NCBI GenBank assembly: GCA_902615805.1
Contig: CACMQH010000007.1
Coordinates: 1-42,072 of the forward strand
From: Rhodospirillaceae bacterium
GTDB lineage: Bacteria; Pseudomonadota; Alphaproteobacteria; TMED109
Length of the DNA stretch: 42,072 bases
Reading direction: 5' to 3'
Made by a program: the position numbers and the translations under genes. This document shows positions 2,949 to 10,980 of the stretch, in pieces. Position 1 is the stretch's first letter. Each line of letters opens with the position of its first letter. Below the pieces are notes generated by a model. The model did not search any database. It saw only the letters and a program-made list of their open reading frames with translations, and was not told the DNA's origin.

Positions 2949-3311
2949 ATGAAAAGCAATTTAAGTATTTCTAGCATTGCATATGAGACAAAACTAATAG
3001 TAGAGAAAGGCACTATTTTAAAGGCTGCCTGCATATTAGATGTACACGGTCATATCAAAGGGAATATTAAAGGGACTACTGTAAAAATAGGACCAAAAGG
3101 TAAAATAGATGGTAACCTTAATTGTAACTCTTTAGAAATCTATGGTGAGTTTACAGGAAATGGAGAAGTAGTTGAATTGAAAGTCTTCAAAGGTGGAAAA
3201 GTAAAAGGCTCATTATCATATAATACTATTGTTGTAGAAGTTGGAGCAACAATATCCGGTCCTATGAAGCCAATAGAAAAAGATCAGGTACTTTTAATTG
3301 AAAACAAGTAA
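2949..3311 (+). CDS. Bactofilin (polymer-forming cytoskeletal protein)
   Basis: The 120-residue protein has the bactofilin (DUF583) repeat pattern from about residue 15 to 108. Short hydrophobic beta strands alternate with glycine turns: HGHIKGNIKG, IGPKGKIDGNLN, GEFTGNGEV, GGKVKGSLS and GATISGPM. These fold into a right-handed beta-helix that polymerises end to end without nucleotide. In other bacteria bactofilins scaffold cell-wall enzymes at the membrane and affect cell shape or stalks. The usual partner, an M23 peptidase, is not next to it. Instead its last 14 nt overlap the start of the kinase gene, so it is translationally coupled to the kinase/enolase-like pair. Whether this link is functional or only shared transcription cannot be told. 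Confidence 0.88.
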   Translation: MKSNLSISSIAYETKLIVEKGTILKAACILDVHGHIKGNIKGTTVKIGPKGKIDGNLNCNSLEIYGEFTGNGEVVELKVFKGGKVKGSLSYNTIVVEVGATISGPMKPIEKDQVLLIENK

Positions 3312-4317
3312 ATTACCTGTAGAGGTTTTTAACGCAGCATGTAAATTTCAGCTTTTAAATAAATCTATTAATTATAATAGTAAAAAAATTACAGATGGCG
3401 TTTCTTCTGATATATGGTACGTAAAAACTGAACAAGATATCGAGTTTTGTATTAAGAGAGCATTAGCTAAGCTTACAGTAAAAGAAGATTGGTATGCACC
3501 AATAAGTAGAAGTAAATTTGAAGCTATGTACTTTCAAAACTGTTTTGAAGTTGCTCCTAATAATTTTCCCAAACTTCTAGGGTATGATAATAAAAACTAT
3601 ATATTAGCAATGAAATGGTACAGCCCTGATAGTTATTTAGTATGGAAAAAAAAATTACTTAACAAAAAAGTTGAAAAAGAAGATGTTATAAATGTGTCCA
3701 ATCTACTGATTAAAAAACATAAAAAATTTTTTAAAAGTAAAAATCTTGAAAAACAATTTGATAATGATGTTACTTTTCATTCTATACGTATAGAACCTTA
3801 TATTTTATTTACATCAAAAAAGTACCCAGACTTTAAGAATAAATTTGATAGTGTTGCAGAAAGTTTAGTTAGAAATAAAAAAACTTTAATTCATGGAGAT
3901 TTTAGCCCCAAGAATATTCTCATAAAAGATAATAGTCCTCTAATTTTAGATGCAGAAACTGCATGCTGGGGGGACCCTGTTTTTGATTTAGCATTTTGTA
4001 ATAATCACCTTTTGCTAAAGAGTCTATTACCAGATGGATTAGGAAAGAAGCTATTAGATTTAAGTTTTCATTTTGTTAAAAACTATATTGATAATATTTC
4101 CTGGGAGGACAAACATTTTTTCACAAAAAGATTGCTTGATATCACTCCTTTATTACTTCTTGCTCGAGTAGATGGCAAATCTCCAATAGAGTATTTCAAA
4201 GTTAAACAACAAGAATTAACAAGACAGTTAGGTACGCAAATATTAATAGATGAAGTTAAAACTCTAGAACAATTATATTTACTATTAGATAATTATGTCG
4301 TCAAAAAAAATTACTGA
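3298..4317 (+). CDS. APH/ChoK-fold small-molecule kinase, methylthioribose-kinase-like
   Basis: This 339-residue protein is a phosphotransferase of the aminoglycoside/choline/methylthioribose kinase superfamily. A glycine-containing loop ITDGVSSDIWYV (31–42) is followed by the ATP-contacting lysine in FCIKRAL (K53). The Brenner motif LIHGDFSPKN (187–196) gives catalytic Asp191 and Asn196, and the metal-binding LDAE (Asp208) precedes WGDPVFDLA (214–222). The DGVSSDIW...KRAL...DW..P..R segment resembles methylthioribose kinases more than antibiotic kinases, so a sugar or hydroxyacid substrate is more likely than an antibiotic. The start is TTG at 3298, inside the bactofilin reading frame; no upstream ATG fits. 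The 3' end overlaps the enolase-like gene by 23 nt, strong evidence for co-expression. Substrate unknown. Confidence 0.85.
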   Translation: MKTSKLPVEVFNAACKFQLLNKSINYNSKKITDGVSSDIWYVKTEQDIEFCIKRALAKLTVKEDWYAPISRSKFEAMYFQNCFEVAPNNFPKLLGYDNKNYILAMKWYSPDSYLVWKKKLLNKKVEKEDVINVSNLLIKKHKKFFKSKNLEKQFDNDVTFHSIRIEPYILFTSKKYPDFKNKFDSVAESLVRNKKTLIHGDFSPKNILIKDNSPLILDAETACWGDPVFDLAFCNNHLLLKSLLPDGLGKKLLDLSFHFVKNYIDNISWEDKHFFTKRLLDITPLLLLARVDGKSPIEYFKVKQQELTRQLGTQILIDEVKTLEQLYLLLDNYVVKKNY

Positions 4318-5575
4318 TATAAAAGGCAGAATGGTTTTTGATAGTAGAGGTTATCCTACAGTGGAATCAGAGGTACAGGTAGATAACAATTTTTATGGAA
4401 CTTCTATTTCACCTTCAGGGGCCTCTAAAGGAAAAAAAGAAGCTTTAGAAAAAAGAGATAATGATGAAAATATATTTTTGGGAAATAGCATTAATGAGAA
4501 TATATTTATTATTAATAATCAAATTAAAGATACTCTAGTAGGGGTTAATATAGAAGATCAAGTTTTAATAGACAAAAAACTAATAGAACTTGATGGAACG
4601 AATAATAAATCGAAAATTGGAGCTAATACTACGATTACAGTATCAATGGCAAGTTTAAAAGCAGCCGCAGCAGTAAATAAAACCTCAGTTTGGGAATATT
4701 TAAATAATTCCTCAGAAAAAAAACTTCCCTTACCAGAAATTCAAATAATTGGAGGAGGAGCTCATGCTAAAGGTAGTATACCAATACAAGATTTTATGAT
4801 TATACCTAATGGAGCACCTGATTTTAATACTGCTCTGCACTGGGTATTTAAAATTTATAAATTAGCTGGAGAAAAGCTCTACAGTCAAAATAAACTATAT
4901 GGTGTTGCCGATGAAGGAGGTTACTGGCCTCACTTTAATGATATTACTTCAGTTTTAGATTTTCTTGTTAAAGTTATTGAAGATGCTGGCTTTGAACCAT
5001 ATAGGCAAGTATCATTATCATTAGATATTGCCGCAAATAATTTTAAGTTTAATAAAAAATATAAAATGTCTAATAAAAAAAATATTCTGTTCAGCTCTAA
5101 TGATCTTTATGATTATTTACTAAAATTAATAAAATCTTATCCTATTATTTCTATTGAAGATCCTTTTGCAGAAGAAGATATAGATTATTTTAAAAAACTA
5201 AAAGAAAGCTCACCTTCTTACTTGCAAGTAGTTGGGGATGACCTAGTAGTAACAAATACAAAATTAATTAAAAATGCGTATAACAAAAATGCTATTAATA
5301 CAATTTTAGTCAAACCCAATCAAATAGGTACCGTTACAGAAACCTCAAATGCCTTAAAATTATCTAATGAGTTAAATCTTATGAGTATTTTGTCTGCAAG
5401 ATCAGGTGAGTCGGAAGATAACTTTATATCTGATTTAAGTGTTGGATGGAAAATGAAGCAACTCAAAGTTGGTTCTTTCTCTAGATCTGAAAGAATGAGT
5501 AAATGGAACCAATGTTTGAGAATAGGAGAAAAGTTTAAAGATAAATATGCTATGCATAAAATATGGAATTTTTAG
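4295..5575 (+). CDS. Divergent enolase paralogue (enolase-like protein)
   Basis: The 426-residue protein aligns end to end with enolase. The N-terminal domain has DSRGYPTVE (16–24) and the mobile serine loop PSGASKG (40–46). Metal ligands are present: Asp244 in SLDIA, Glu288 in SIEDP and Asp315 in VGDDL. The general base Lys340 (LVKPNQIGT), the acid Glu207 (ADEGGY), His157 (GGGAHAKG), Arg369/Ser370 and Lys391 (QLKVGS) are also kept. Two residues nearly invariant in true enolases differ: the Glu of QEFMI is Asp166 (QDFMI), and the His of SHRSGE is Ala368 (SARSGE). The INGG motif is IGGG. I infer enolase-type beta-elimination on a modified substrate, probably the product of the overlapping kinase. 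It could be an aberrant glycolytic enolase, but the specific replacements argue for a paralogue. Its stop overlaps that of the VOC gene by 4 nt. Confidence 0.85.
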   Translation: MSSKKITDIKGRMVFDSRGYPTVESEVQVDNNFYGTSISPSGASKGKKEALEKRDNDENIFLGNSINENIFIINNQIKDTLVGVNIEDQVLIDKKLIELDGTNNKSKIGANTTITVSMASLKAAAAVNKTSVWEYLNNSSEKKLPLPEIQIIGGGAHAKGSIPIQDFMIIPNGAPDFNTALHWVFKIYKLAGEKLYSQNKLYGVADEGGYWPHFNDITSVLDFLVKVIEDAGFEPYRQVSLSLDIAANNFKFNKKYKMSNKKNILFSSNDLYDYLLKLIKSYPIISIEDPFAEEDIDYFKKLKESSPSYLQVVGDDLVVTNTKLIKNAYNKNAINTILVKPNQIGTVTETSNALKLSNELNLMSILSARSGESEDNFISDLSVGWKMKQLKVGSFSRSERMSKWNQCLRIGEKFKDKYAMHKIWNF

Positions 5576-6054
5576 GGTATAAACTTTTGATCTTGCCAAC
5601 CCTTTAGAATCTTCATATTAGTTTCATATGAGTTAATATTTAATTTTTCTGTTGGATAGGTTAGTTCAATTACATACCCATTAGGGTCTCTAAAATAAAT
5701 AGATTTTATAAAACCATGATCAATTATACCTCTTGTTTCAATTTCAAAATTATTCCCTTTTTTAAACATTCTATGTAAATCTGATTCAGAAACTTCAAAT
5801 GCAATATGCAAATCAAAATCTCTTTGTTTTTTGAAATTGAACTCAGTCTCTGGTTCCTCAAAAAATGCTATACAAGATCCATCTTTTAATTGATAAAAGG
5901 TATGTAAGGCGTTAGTTTTTCTATCAGTTTTAGTGTTTTTAATTTCAAGTACCTTTACTAGTTTTAACTCTAGAAATTCTTCATAAAACTTTCTTGTTTC
6001 TTCGCTGTCTTTGCACCTGTAAGCACTGTGATGGAGTTTTAAAAGTTTGGTCAT
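5572..6054 (-). CDS. VOC (glyoxalase/bleomycin-resistance/dioxygenase) superfamily protein
   Basis: About 160 residues forming one VOC module pair. From the ATG at 6054 it starts MTKLLKLHHSAYRCKDSEET with the first metal-ligand histidine, and continues with HTFYQLKDGSCIAFFEEP. The second half has HIAFEVSESDLHRMF and ends in YFRDPNGYVIELTYPT, which supplies the usual C-terminal His/Glu metal ligands. Family members include glyoxalase I, ring-cleaving dioxygenases and epimerases; the reaction here is not assignable. A TTG 15 nt further upstream (6069) would add five residues, but the ATG gives the typical family start. It is convergent with the enolase-like gene, and its promoter region is shared back to back with rpmJ. 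Confidence 0.8.
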   Translation of the reverse strand: MTKLLKLHHSAYRCKDSEETRKFYEEFLELKLVKVLEIKNTKTDRKTNALHTFYQLKDGSCIAFFEEPETEFNFKKQRDFDLHIAFEVSESDLHRMFKKGNNFEIETRGIIDHGFIKSIYFRDPNGYVIELTYPTEKLNINSYETNMKILKGWQDQKFIP

Positions 6055-6062
6055 AGTTTTTT

Positions 6063-6091
6063 TTGACAAATAATCATTTTATATATATATA
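6063..6091 (+). promoter_or_regulatory. Strong sigma-70 promoter for rpmJ
   Basis: A perfect -35 TTGACA (6063–6068), a 17 nt spacer and a -10 TATATA (6086–6091) lie upstream of rpmJ. Transcription would start near 6098, giving a leader of about 13 nt that contains the GGAG ribosome site before the ATG at 6111. It is the best promoter match I found in the window. Confidence 0.6.
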
Positions 6092-6239: not shown

Positions 6240-6485
6240 TTGAATACTGAAAATAAAGAAAAAATTGAAGCAGCAGTTTTTAGAAGATTACTCAATCATC
6301 TTCAGGAAAATACAGATTTGCAAAATATTGATTTAATGAACCTAGCTGGATTTTGTAGAAATTGTTTATCTAAGTGGTATGTAGAAGCATCAAAGGAAAA
6401 TGGTCAAGAAATTAACTATGATAAGGCCAAAGAAATAGTTTACTCGATGCCATATAATGAATGGAAGGAAAAATATCAAAAATAA
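6240..6485 (+). CDS. DUF1244 family protein
   Basis: The 81-residue protein matches the small DUF1244 family: RRLLNHLQENTDLQNIDLMN, then GFCRNCLSKWYVEAS, then YSMPYNEWKEKYQ. The CRNC pair and the invariant MPYxEWK segment are the hallmarks. The biochemical role is unknown; members are near-universal in Alphaproteobacteria and common in Gammaproteobacteria. The start is TTG at 6240, just 3 nt after the rpmJ stop, so it is probably transcribed from the rpmJ promoter. It faces the epimerase gene with a 2 bp gap between the stops. Confidence 0.88.
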   Translation: MNTENKEKIEAAVFRRLLNHLQENTDLQNIDLMNLAGFCRNCLSKWYVEASKENGQEINYDKAKEIVYSMPYNEWKEKYQK

Positions 6486-6487
6486 TC

Positions 6488-7453
6488 TTATATTTTATGA
6501 TATTCTTTATACCAATTCACAAACTTTGTAAGCCCTTGTCTCAAACTGGTTTTTGGTTGAAACTTTAGTTCTTTTTTACTTTTTTCAATATCAGCAAAAG
6601 TTTTTTTAACGTCTCCTGGTTGCATTGAGACAAGTTTCTTCTTAGCTTTTTTGCCAATAGTTTCTTCTAAAAGTTTAATCATTGTATTTAATAACACTGG
6701 TGAATTATTGCCCAAATTATATATTCGATGTTTGGTAAATTTTTTATTTTTGGATAGTTTAATAGCTTTTTGAACACCATCAATAATATCATCTATGTAA
6801 GTGAAATCTCTGCTGAGGTTTCCTCTATTAAATACTTCTATTGCTTTGTTGTTAATTATTGACTCTGTAAATTTCCATATAGCCATGTCGGGTCTTCCCA
6901 TTGGACCATAAACAGTAAAAAACCTTAAACCAATAGAATTTAGTTTATACAAATTAAAATAACTTTCAGCCATTAACTCATTAGATCTTTTTGTCACAGC
7001 ATATAAAGATACGGGATTAGAAACATCATCATTTACAGAAAATGGCACTTTTCTATTTGCACCATAAACCGAACTAGAAGATGCATAAACTAAATTAGTA
7101 TTATATTTTCTACAATATTCTAATATATTTAAAAATCCATCTATATTGTATTTAAGATAAATACTCGGGTTTGTAATTGAATACCTTACGCCAGCTTGAG
7201 CAGCTAAATGGCATATAACACTTAATTTTTTTTTTTTTATAATTTTTTCTAGATTTAATGCTTTGGATAAATCCGCTTTTATAAAAGTAAAGTTTTTAAA
7301 TTTATTCAACTGTTTTAGTCTATACTTTTTTAAGTTAACGCTATAATAATCATTTAAATTATCTATTCCAATAACATTGAAATTCTGAGACAACATTTTA
7401 GATGCCAAATGACTGCCTATAAATCCTGCTACTCCTGTAATTAATATTGTCAT
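6488..7453 (-). CDS. NAD-dependent nucleotide-sugar epimerase, UDP-glucuronate 4-epimerase type
   Basis: This 321-residue extended short-chain dehydrogenase has the NAD-binding GVAGFIGSHLASKML at 7–21, the IDNLNDYY segment typical of UDP-glucuronate 4-epimerases, CHLAAQAGVRYSI, SSSSVYG and the catalytic YAVTK (Tyr/Lys). The RFFTVYGPMGRPDMA motif is also diagnostic of that subfamily. Such enzymes interconvert UDP-glucuronate and UDP-galacturonate for capsule, LPS or exopolysaccharide. No other surface-polysaccharide genes are nearby, so the end product cannot be inferred. A related UDP-glucose epimerase activity is less likely. A TATAAA box ends 5 nt before the ATG. Confidence 0.87.
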   Translation of the reverse strand: MTILITGVAGFIGSHLASKMLSQNFNVIGIDNLNDYYSVNLKKYRLKQLNKFKNFTFIKADLSKALNLEKIIKKKKLSVICHLAAQAGVRYSITNPSIYLKYNIDGFLNILEYCRKYNTNLVYASSSSVYGANRKVPFSVNDDVSNPVSLYAVTKRSNELMAESYFNLYKLNSIGLRFFTVYGPMGRPDMAIWKFTESIINNKAIEVFNRGNLSRDFTYIDDIIDGVQKAIKLSKNKKFTKHRIYNLGNNSPVLLNTMIKLLEETIGKKAKKKLVSMQPGDVKKTFADIEKSKKELKFQPKTSLRQGLTKFVNWYKEYHKI

Positions 7454-7521: not shown

Positions 7522-10500
7522 ATGCTTAATGTTAGTTTAGAAGATAAATATTTAATAAGAAAAGGAAGAATTTTTGTAAATGGCACACAAGTTCTTGTTA
7601 AATTACCTCTTATACAAAAAGCTCTAGATAAAAAAAGAAATCTAAATACATCGGGCTTTATATCTGGTTATAGAGGATCTCCTTTAGGAAATTATGATAG
7701 AGCATTATGGCAAGCAAATAATCATTTAGTTGAAAATGATATTAAGTTTTCTCCAGGTTTAAATGAAGACTTGGCTGCTACTGCAGTCTGGGGCACACAA
7801 CAACCCAACTTAATTTCTGATTCAATAAATGATGGTGTATTTTCTATTTGGTATGGTAAAGGACCTGGTGTTGACAGAAGTGGTGATGCCTTCAAACATG
7901 CTAATTCTGCAGGAACAAATAAGAATGGAGGGGTGTTAGCTTTACTGGGGGATGATCATACAGCTAAATCTTCTACTTTAGCGCATCAAAGTGAATTTGC
8001 TATGTTAGATGCTCAAATACCAGTTTTAAATCCCTCTAATATTTATGATTTATTAGAATATGGACTATTTGGTTGGGAATTATCTAGGTTTTCTGGATTG
8101 TGGGTCTCTATGAAATGTATAACAAGTATTGTTGATAGTACTGCTTCAATAGAGATTGATGAAGAAAGTTTTAATTTTATAAAACCAGATCTTACAAAAG
8201 AAAAGTTAGATGTGCATATAAGACCTTATGATAACATGCTAGAACAGGAAAAACGTATACCTTCATTAAAGCTACCATTGGCTGTAGAGTTTGCAAAAAA
8301 AAATAATATTAATAAAGTTATTTGGAATAATGGTTTTAAAAATATAGGAATTGTTGCTACTGGAAAAGCATACGCTGATACTTTAGAATGCTTTGACTCA
8401 CTTAATATTAACGAAAAAAAAGCAAAAGACTTGGGGATACACCTCCTAAAAGTAGGTATGAGTTGGCCAATAGAGAATGAGAAATTTAAAAAGTTTTCCA
8501 GTGGAATGCAAGAAGTTTTAGTAGTTGAGGAAAAAAGAAGCTTTTTAGAAGCAAATATTAAAAACTGCTTATATAATACTCCTAATGCTCCAAAAATAAT
8601 TGTTGGCAAATTAGATGAAGATAATAATCAGTTAATTAAAGATGATTTTGAAATTAAAAAATCAGATCTCAAAAGAGTTTTAATTTCAAGGATTGAAAAG
8701 AATTGCAGAGTAAATTTAGATAATCTGAGTAATCACTTAAAAATAAATATTAAAACTAATCGAGAAAAAAATAATATAGAAAGAACCCCTTATTTCTGCT
8801 CAGGTTGTCCACATAATACTTCTACAAAAGTTCCTGCAGGTAGTAAAGCTATGGCAGGAATTGGATGTCATTTTATGGCAGCTTGGATGAATAGAAATAC
8901 TTCATTGTATACCCATATGGGAGCTGAAGGTACGAACTGGATTGGTATGGCTCCTTTTGTTAAAGACAGTCATATTTTTCAAAATATTGGCGATGGAACC
9001 TTTAATCACTCAGGAACGTTAGCTATTAGAGCATCCGTCGCAGCAAAAGTTAATATTACTTATAAAATTCTTTACAATGATGCTGTAGCAATGACAGGAG
9101 GACAACCAGTAGATGGAGTACCAACCACTGCTCAAATAACACATCAATTATATGGAGAAGGTGTTAAGAAAATAGTAATAGTTACAGATGAAATAGAAAA
9201 ATATAAAGATGTTATGGAAGAACTCTCAAAAGGTACAACCGTCCATCATAGAAAAGAACTAGAACTTATACAAAATAATTTAAAAACTATTAAAGGTGTA
9301 ACCGTAATTATATATGATCAAACATGCGCCACCGAAAAAAGAAGAAGAAGAAAAAGAGGAAAATTAAAAGACCCTGATAAAAGAATATTTATTAATCATT
9401 ATGTTTGTGAAGGTTGTGGAGATTGCTCAGTAGAGTCTAACTGTATTTCTGTAGAACCTCTTAAAACTGAATATGGCACTAAAAGAGTTATTAATCAATC
9501 AACCTGTAATAAAGACTATAGTTGTGCTAATGGTTTTTGTCCCTCATTTTTGTCAATTGAAGGCGGTAATATTAAAAAAAGATCTATCCCTAAGTTAAAT
9601 AACCCTACCTCTAAAATTAATGAACTAAAAAAACCTAATACTATTCCTTTAGATAATAAAACTTATAGCATTATTGTTACTGGTATAGGAGGTACTGGCG
9701 TTGTAACAATTGGAGCTTTAATTGGAATGGCAGCACATATCGAAAAAAAAGGGATATCTATTTTAGATCAAGTTGGTATAGCTCAAAAAGGTGGCGCTGT
9801 TTTAAGTCATATTAAAATAGCTCAAAATCCAAAAAATATATATTCTACACAAATAGCAGAAAAATCTGCTAATCTATTACTAGGATGTGATATAGTTGTT
9901 TCAGCCAGCAAAGAAGTAAGAGATATGCTTAGCACTAGTAAAACGTATGCTGTCATTAATAATAATGAAACACCCTTATCTCAATTTGTTTTGGACTCTA
10001 ATTTTACTTATAATACTTCACTCACATCTAACTTAATTAAAAGTAATACCTTAGAAATCAATCAAATTAATGCCACTGAACTTTCTAAATACTTATTTGG
10101 AAATACAATACTTTCAAATATATTTTTAGTAGGATATGCAATACAAAAGGGTCTCATACCTATTTCTGTTGATGCCTTAGAAAAGGCAATACAAATAAAT
10201 AATGTTAGTGTGGAAGAAAATTTAAGCGCCTTTAATTGGGGAAGACTTGCGGCAGAAGATATCAAATATGTATTAAAAAAGTGTAATCTCATTACTACTA
10301 AATATGAAAAGGATGAAAGATTAGAAGTACTAATTAATAATAGATACGACGACTTAATAAAATATCATAATAAAACATATGCAATGAAATTTAAAAATAT
10401 AATTAGCAAAGTAGTTGAAAAAGATAAAAAGTTTAAATCTAAAAAATTTAAACTGTCTAGATTAATTATAAATACTTTGTTTAAAACTATGGCTTACAAA

Positions 10501-10980
10501 GATGAGTTTGAAGTTGCTAGACTATATACTGATGGTCGGTTTGAAAAATATCTTAATGAAAACTTTGAAGGTAATTTTAAATTAGGTATATATTTATCAC
10601 CTCCAATACTAAATTTAAAAGACTCAAAAACGAAGAAGCCAAAAAAAATCCTATTTACAAAAAATATTTTTTATCTTTTTAACATTTTAAAAAAGTTAAA
10701 ATTTTTAAGAAATACGCCACTCAATATTTTTGCTTATAGCCTAGAAAGAAAAAAAGAAAAACAGCTAATTAAAACCCTAGATGACTGCATAAATTTAATT
10801 TTAAAAAAACTTAATAATAATAACTATAAAAATAGTTTAGCTTTAATTGAAATATTTTCAGAAATTAAAGGCTTTGGGCACGTTAAATTAAGAAATTTTA
10901 GTAACTTTGAAAATCAATACGAGCAAAGGATTAAAGAGTTCAAACAATCTTCAAAAAAAATAGACCTAGCAGCAGAATAA
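7522..10980 (+). CDS. Indolepyruvate:ferredoxin oxidoreductase, fused alpha/beta-gamma form
   Basis: The 1152-residue protein is the long fused form found in aerobic proteobacteria. Residues about 1–400 are the pyrimidine-binding half (GYRGSPLGNYDRALW, LNEDLAATAVWGTQ, GKGPGVDRSGDA). The TPP-binding half follows, with a cysteine cluster CSGCPHN...GIGCH near 428–453 and NIGDGTFNHSG near 490. A ferredoxin-like cluster VCEGCGDCSVESNC near 628–641 precedes a second cysteine group (SCANGFCPS). From about 715 comes the gamma domain, VTGIGGTGVVTIGAL, and then a roughly 220-residue C-terminal extension. The family oxidatively decarboxylates aryl 2-oxoacids from aromatic amino-acid transamination, giving acyl-CoA and reduced ferredoxin. 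The exact 2-oxoacid is not certain. The UbiB-like gene starts 11 nt downstream. Confidence 0.92.
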   Translation: MLNVSLEDKYLIRKGRIFVNGTQVLVKLPLIQKALDKKRNLNTSGFISGYRGSPLGNYDRALWQANNHLVENDIKFSPGLNEDLAATAVWGTQQPNLISDSINDGVFSIWYGKGPGVDRSGDAFKHANSAGTNKNGGVLALLGDDHTAKSSTLAHQSEFAMLDAQIPVLNPSNIYDLLEYGLFGWELSRFSGLWVSMKCITSIVDSTASIEIDEESFNFIKPDLTKEKLDVHIRPYDNMLEQEKRIPSLKLPLAVEFAKKNNINKVIWNNGFKNIGIVATGKAYADTLECFDSLNINEKKAKDLGIHLLKVGMSWPIENEKFKKFSSGMQEVLVVEEKRSFLEANIKNCLYNTPNAPKIIVGKLDEDNNQLIKDDFEIKKSDLKRVLISRIEKNCRVNLDNLSNHLKINIKTNREKNNIERTPYFCSGCPHNTSTKVPAGSKAMAGIGCHFMAAWMNRNTSLYTHMGAEGTNWIGMAPFVKDSHIFQNIGDGTFNHSGTLAIRASVAAKVNITYKILYNDAVAMTGGQPVDGVPTTAQITHQLYGEGVKKIVIVTDEIEKYKDVMEELSKGTTVHHRKELELIQNNLKTIKGVTVIIYDQTCATEKRRRRKRGKLKDPDKRIFINHYVCEGCGDCSVESNCISVEPLKTEYGTKRVINQSTCNKDYSCANGFCPSFLSIEGGNIKKRSIPKLNNPTSKINELKKPNTIPLDNKTYSIIVTGIGGTGVVTIGALIGMAAHIEKKGISILDQVGIAQKGGAVLSHIKIAQNPKNIYSTQIAEKSANLLLGCDIVVSASKEVRDMLSTSKTYAVINNNETPLSQFVLDSNFTYNTSLTSNLIKSNTLEINQINATELSKYLFGNTILSNIFLVGYAIQKGLIPISVDALEKAIQINNVSVEENLSAFNWGRLAAEDIKYVLKKCNLITTKYEKDERLEVLINNRYDDLIKYHNKTYAMKFKNIISKVVEKDKKFKSKKFKLSRLIINTLFKTMAYKDEFEVARLYTDGRFEKYLNENFEGNFKLGIYLSPPILNLKDSKTKKPKKILFTKNIFYLFNILKKLKFLRNTPLNIFAYSLERKKEKQLIKTLDDCINLILKKLNNNNYKNSLALIEIFSEIKGFGHVKLRNFSNFENQYEQRIKEFKQSSKKIDLAAE

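Follow-up and report, generated by a model that had tools for sequence, protein, structure and literature searches.

An enolase paralogue with an altered active site and its partner kinase as a candidate module of hydroxyacid metabolism

Two overlapping genes in a 42,072-nucleotide contig of a Rhodospirillaceae bacterium (CACMQH010000007.1 of assembly GCA_902615805.1; the whole stretch analysed is here called the window) encode a small-molecule kinase with the fold of the APH and methylthioribose kinase (MTRK) families and a close homologue of the glycolytic enzyme enolase. This homologue is a true paralogue of enolase with two apparently coupled active-site replacements, and it is conserved and inherited together with its kinase far beyond the window's own lineage. 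With a probability of about one half, the pair constitutes a two-step module acting on a glycerate-like 2,3-dihydroxy acid, its enolase-like member using a substrate other than D-2-phosphoglycerate. The co-conservation and co-inheritance of the two genes, the coupled residue changes, the kept catalytic residues and the predicted folds are directly supported; the chemistry, the order of the steps and the substrate we infer.

The active site of enolase is a standard example of strict conservation. The enolase-like protein in the window matches both Pfam domains of this family (Enolase_N, E 2e-42; Enolase_C, E 4e-79) and keeps the metal ligands D244, E288 and D315, the base K340 and the acid E207 as well as H157, R369, S370 and K391. 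At the positions of Glu167 and His369 in the active site of E. coli enolase, however, the paralogue has Asp and Ala (D166 and A368), and the canonical INGG reads IGGG. The two open reading frames, their 23-nt overlap and the residues named in a preliminary description of this DNA, made from the sequence alone, were all confirmed in translation and alignment.

For homologues, 84,980 species genomes were scanned with a DNA pattern (K-x-N-Q, a 23-residue gap and A-R-S/T-G-E-x-E-D after a Ser/Thr-type codon) that fixed the His-to-Ala replacement only and left the Glu-to-Asp site free. At least 115 DNA stretches matched, and 80 loci were fetched. Every one of these whose reading frame spans the Glu-to-Asp site has Asp, and in the combined alignment Asp and Ala occur in 80/80 paralogues, Glu and His in 46/46 ordinary enolases. 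Ala is the criterion by which the paralogue set was grouped, and the information therefore lies in the other columns. Asn154-to-Gly/Ser and, for the most part, Gly206-to-Ala (E. coli numbering) likewise separate the paralogues from ordinary enolases, whereas the metal ligands, the Lys base, the Glu acid, the Arg and Ser that hold the phosphate and the Lys that holds the carboxylate are invariant in all 80 paralogues and 46 canonical enolases. Even without the four signature columns, a tree separates the paralogues from the ordinary enolases at a branch (Shimodaira–Hasegawa-like approximate likelihood-ratio test, SH-aLRT, 97), although this tree was built by a quick method and the program flagged composition bias. 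The two replacements singled out in the preliminary description are thus fixed in the paralogues and absent from the 46 ordinary enolases compared; judged from the alignment, the Glu-to-Asp and His-to-Ala changes are coupled and do not represent local drift.

In the window's own assembly, the protein is the only enolase; this assembly, however, is 75.5% complete. In a genome of the same genus (G019), the ordinary eno gene stands in a block consisting of the end of pyrG, kdsA, eno, a 100-aa FtsB-like open reading frame and pdhA (names assigned by reading translations). A search of the window's 75.5% complete assembly for kdsA found none, so that the ordinary eno most likely falls into an assembly gap along with this neighbour. 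Both enolases are carried by ten relatives (G003, G005, G006, G007, G019, G022, G023, G024, G026 and G027), which makes the enolase-like protein a true paralogue. Both genes of the pair are under purifying selection in comparisons with same-genus relatives (ratio of non-synonymous to synonymous substitution rates, dN/dS, about 0.11 to 0.18); the window's enolase-like gene gives 0.076/0.70 against G018, and its kinase gene 0.055/0.30 against G020. An assembly artefact, a pseudogene or recent drift is ruled out by the relatives' copies, the distant homologues, the tree and these values.

The paralogue is rarely found without its kinase. By profile search, 58/80 paralogue loci have the kinase gene as their immediate upstream neighbour in the same orientation, while 13 loci lack the room to tell, three have the kinase nearby in another arrangement and six have none within reach; the count was taken from the profile search, as the simple gene caller misses some genes (it labelled the kinase in 87 of 118 loci). 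Conversely, an enolase homologue is present within 9 kb of the kinase in all 18 kinase-bearing plasmid records fetched. In the window's family, the kinase occurs in 14/14 genomes that have the paralogue and the other 14 genomes have neither gene; 23 of 289 same-class genomes bear the paralogue, and the kinase was present in 20/20 further genomes of this class that do so. Pairwise distances of kinase and enolase correlate with r = 0.86 (75 pairs; none of 2000 permutations as high), a value to which shared host ancestry adds. Both genes are retained even in genomes of 1.0 to 1.7 Mb. The preliminary description, which proposed a survey of alphaproteobacterial genomes, underestimated the scope of the pair: it occurs in Pseudomonadota, Actinomycetota, Acidobacteriota, Planctomycetota, Verrucomicrobiota, Chloroflexota, Bacteroidota and haloarchaeal plasmids. 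Since both the pair and its residue pattern recur in distant phyla, neither is due to chance. Within the window's family, its small-genome clade and genus g8, whose genomes are larger, fall into different parts of the paralogue tree, which suggests two acquisitions, each with its own kinase.

The kinase matches the Pfam family APH (PF01636; E 7e-11, 42.7 bits against a gathering score of 23.2) and weakly Fructosamin_kin; this score, the invariant HxD and DxE/D motifs and the fold assign it to the APH-type phosphotransferase superfamily. As the preliminary description had proposed, it resembles methylthioribose kinases, which are its nearest relatives by profile, PDB sequence and fold. An aminoglycoside (antibiotic) kinase was rejected, with MTRK and PsiK ranking ahead and APH entries reaching a template-modelling score (TM) of about 0.5. 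An actual MTRK was rejected as well: the protein scores 49.6 bits against the TIGR01767 cut-off of 275 and, although MTRK offers the nearest solved fold and the nearest profile, it shares about 17% identity with it, is about 60 residues shorter, has invariant motifs of its own (SPKN, ARVDGKSP) and is partnered by an enolase homologue. It thus forms its own subfamily with invariant HGD..SPKN, DxE, Arg164, Arg290 and Tyr299; H199, D201, S203, P204, K205 and N206 are invariant in 36 kinase sequences, and the position of the TTG start is conserved in relatives. The invariant Arg164, Arg290 and Lys205 would suit an anionic substrate. The kinase matches neither of the glycerate kinase families PF13660 and PF02595, and there is no match in G000 either.

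With all chemistry-bearing residues kept, an enolase-type reaction is the natural reading for the paralogue, and a kinase that supplies a 2-phospho substrate would explain the strict pairing. In the first step, the kinase would transfer a phosphate from ATP to the C2 hydroxyl of a glycerate-like 2,3-dihydroxy acid, which, depending on the host pathway, may arise by reduction of a 2-keto acid or be released by a hydrolase. In the second, the paralogue with its two Mg ions would take the C2 proton via the Lys base and expel the C3 hydroxyl via the Glu acid, yielding an enol phosphate, i.e. phosphoenolpyruvate (PEP) or a C3-substituted PEP, as the equivalent of a 3-deoxy-2-keto acid. The Glu-to-Asp change, the lost His and the Gly-to-Ala change next to the acid would most likely reflect a pocket adapted to a substrate other than D-2-phosphoglycerate, which would probably bear an additional group at C3. 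L-2-phosphoglycerate was judged an unlikely candidate, as the phosphate grips and the base are kept and an inverted C2 would turn its proton away. A precedent for recruitment of an enolase homologue to another phospho-substrate is the enolase homologue of phosphinothricin biosynthesis, which serves the carboxyphosphonoenolpyruvate step; it belongs to a natural-product pathway, and it is set beside the paralogue here without a comparison of residues.

Several observations weigh against such a substrate. The paralogue passes the TIGR01060 enolase equivalog cut-off (437.5 versus 300 bits). Sister genera without the pair have a glycerate 2-kinase (PF13660) between the genes F3 and VOC (L182-L186, L188), in a block F9-epimerase-F3-[glycerate 2-kinase]-VOC that equals a block in the window, where a glycerate kinase is missing but the pair lies on the other side of VOC. 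Furthermore, on two Rhizobium plasmids (L160, L167) PEP carboxylase, a C-terminal-binding-protein-like dehydrogenase and the kinase form a row opposite an operon that contains the enolase paralogue and a dioxygenase-like gene. Both this row and the glycerate 2-kinase at the matching locus would fit a conversion of glycerate to PEP.

In the chief alternative, the pair turns D-glycerate into PEP, i.e. a new, non-homologous D-glycerate 2-kinase and a dedicated 2-phosphoglycerate enolase form a self-contained substitute for glycerate kinase and glycolytic enolase; we consider it rather unlikely. PF13660 is found in 0/9 small genomes with the pair and in 9/10 small genomes of genera without it, and PF02595 is absent throughout, which suggests that in the window's lineage the pair took over glycerate phosphorylation or made it dispensable. 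PEP carboxylase and a 2-hydroxyacid dehydrogenase by the Rhizobium kinase recall the serine cycle, with its route from hydroxypyruvate via glycerate and PEP to oxaloacetate; for the window's lineage a serine-cycle role was rejected, as PEP carboxylase is missing throughout the family. The mutual exclusion of glycerate kinase and pair may, however, be a single evolutionary event, and it fails outside the small-genome clade, where glycerate kinase is kept in 16/20 genomes with the pair and 18/20 without it, and all five pair-bearing g8 genomes also keep the PF13660 enzyme. A general replacement is thus not supported: a role shared with glycerate 2-kinase is possible given the PF13660 gene at the matching locus in sister genera, but the two kinases show no sequence match and coexist in most other genomes tested. 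This coexistence, together with the ordinary enolase in ten relatives, indicates that the pair probably does something that glycerate kinase and ordinary enolase do not. Moreover, a glycerate kinase alone needs no second enolase, yet streamlined genomes retain the paralogue with its coupled active-site changes. In Mycobacterium tuberculosis enolase, the Glu at this position contacts the substrate carboxylate and an Ala mutant has been reported to be non-functional (PMC10619443), which also speaks against turnover of 2-phosphoglycerate, even if Asp is a milder change.

We still favour a substrate that is not D-2-phosphoglycerate, since streamlined genomes keep both genes although an ordinary enolase and usually also a glycerate kinase are present. 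The interpretation given in the preliminary description thus stands as far as it concerns a true paralogue, a conserved pair, fixed replacements and a non-antibiotic kinase; its suggestion that the substrate differs from 2-phosphoglycerate stays a hypothesis, and the glycerate 2-kinase at the same locus in sister genera leaves room for glycerate to PEP.

Two further explanations concern the paralogue's chemistry itself. The group-specific D166, A205 and A368, which lie at the acid and substrate-binding positions or next to them, and the wide variation of neighbouring pathways would agree with a substrate that loses from C3 not a hydroxyl but a sulfonate, amine, ether or glycosyl group, so that the module would release PEP by this elimination; this is improbable, given that the acid Glu207, needed for expulsion of a hydroxyl, is invariant and that the recurring neighbours include no gene recognised as specific to sulfonates or amines. 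That the paralogue is a non-catalytic regulatory or scaffolding partner of the kinase, in line with strict pairing, gene overlap and the frequent moonlighting of enolases, is very improbable, as metal ligands, base, acid and the phosphate and carboxylate grips would be needless without catalysis and yet are invariant in 80 sequences.

The gene neighbourhoods in a phylogenetically unbalanced sample of 118 loci most often contain a D-2-hydroxyacid dehydrogenase (26), an SDR (22), an FAH hydrolase (19) or a sugar ABC ATPase (10); genes of the UxuA, MR and dihydroxyacid dehydratase types also occur near the pair. One recurrent layout, in Paracoccus and Roseibium, begins with a LacI regulator, followed by kinase, enolase, FAH, SDR and sugar ABC transporter; another consists of 2-hydroxyacid dehydrogenase, kinase and enolase (Sphingobium and several same-class genomes). 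A third, found in Rhizobium, Cupriavidus and Rhodococcus, is a cluster that includes a VOC dioxygenase-like gene, an alcohol dehydrogenase, a cupin and an FMN reductase. What they have in common would be the breakdown of small hydroxy or keto acids, probably of sugar or ring origin. FAH and SDR also characterize the diketo-hydrolase sugar-acid pathways (e.g. 2,4-didehydro-3-deoxy-L-rhamnonate hydrolase, NF053535), but the FAH proteins beside the pair remain under the curated cut-off (355 and 265 versus 500), and to our knowledge these pathways contain no kinase-enolase step. Tentatively, the pair might be a widespread ATP-driven dehydroxylation module, in which a D-2-hydroxyacid dehydrogenase would reduce a 3-hydroxy-2-keto acid, the kinase phosphorylate the new C2 hydroxyl and the paralogue remove the C3 hydroxyl, with the resulting enol phosphate serving as a 3-deoxy-2-keto acid or PEP analogue in sugar-acid, ring-cleavage or even biosynthetic clusters.

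In open-licence papers, we found no description of the pair, its neighbours, an L-glycerate kinase with an enolase or a new enolase function. The pair combines an enolase subgroup with a distinct APH kinase subfamily; both are widespread, the former systematically annotated as glycolytic enolase. Likeness to enolase (phosphopyruvate hydratase; TIGR01060, PF00113/PF03952) is indeed high, with a fold TM of 0.95 to the E. coli enzyme and about 40% identity; it is the Asp and Ala shared by all paralogues and their role as a second copy with a near-constant kinase partner that set them apart. Since the paralogue passes the glycolytic cut-off and public annotation names it 'phosphopyruvate hydratase', its reaction probably goes unnoticed in many genomes, and metabolic models would treat it as part of glycolysis. 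If the proposed function is true, close homologues of glycolytic enolase have acquired a new catabolic function. How enolase specificity is set becomes directly testable in a natural lineage that has fixed active-site changes and a dedicated kinase.

Table 1. Features of the kinase–enolase locus and adjoining genes (positions in the window)
Feature	Position	Strand	Remarks
Bactofilin (PF04519)	2949..3311	+	Pfam; order same in small-genome relatives
APH/MTRK-fold small-molecule kinase, 339 aa, TTG start	3298..4317	+	
Kinase catalytic loop His199-Gly-Asp201-Phe-Ser-Pro-Lys205-Asn206	3892..3915	+	
Kinase metal-binding motif Asp218-x-Glu220	3949..3957	+	
Overlap of kinase end and enolase-like start, 23 nt	4295..4317	+	both genes same strand
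Enolase paralogue (D/A type), 426 aa, ATG start	4295..5575	+	
Gly153 (canonical Asn; Gly or Ser across paralogues)	4751..4753	+	combined alignment
Asp166, canonical Glu (E. coli Glu167)	4790..4792	+	combined alignment
Ala205 (canonical Gly; 96% vs 100%)	4907..4909	+	two residues ahead of acid Glu207
Glu207, catalytic acid position, kept	4913..4915	+	
Lys340, catalytic base position, kept	5312..5314	+	
Ala368, canonical His (E. coli His369)	5396..5398	+	combined alignment
VOC/glyoxalase-fold gene, convergent	5572..6069	-	in sister genera this locus marker adjoins glycerate 2-kinase
F3, 81-aa gene	6240-6485	+	part of syntenic block
NAD epimerase	6488-7453	-	part of syntenic block

Around the pair (table 1), F3, the NAD epimerase gene and the stretch 7522-10980 mark the syntenic block that the window shares with the sister genera, which have the glycerate 2-kinase between F3 and VOC. 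Upstream, the last 14 nt of the bactofilin gene (3298..3311) are shared with the start of the kinase gene, and such an overlap is also present in G003, G004, G006, G007 and G020. Bactofilin, a cytoskeletal gene apparently co-expressed here with a metabolic pair, is probably co-transcribed with it; elsewhere it is not part of the module. Divergently from the bactofilin-kinase-enolase genes, positions 1726-2880 encode a protein of the FMN-dependent alpha-hydroxyacid dehydrogenase family with 87% identity to its G003 counterpart; a role in supplying or consuming a 2-keto acid is conceivable, yet as the whole region is syntenic, we draw no inference from its position.

Some plasmids show the kinase subfamily in other surroundings. 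On a plasmid of Enterobacter chuandaensis (L165; NZ_CP097174.1, 7247-18921), it stands divergently beside a more derived enolase homologue, in which the acid Glu is replaced by Lys and SARSGE reads AGRSID, in a cluster with a 2-hydroxyacid dehydrogenase, an aminotransferase, a haem-oxygenase-like enzyme, U32 and M14 peptidases, an MFS transporter and a nucleotidyltransferase. This biosynthetic-looking cluster may represent a natural-product use of the module. A similar kinase is borne by an E. hormaechei plasmid. On two haloarchaeal plasmids (L166, L176), the pair is found amid several genes of the mandelate racemase family, an ilvC-annotated ketol-acid reductoisomerase, SDRs and TCP-1 chaperonin genes, surroundings that hint at a haloarchaeal sugar-acid pathway.

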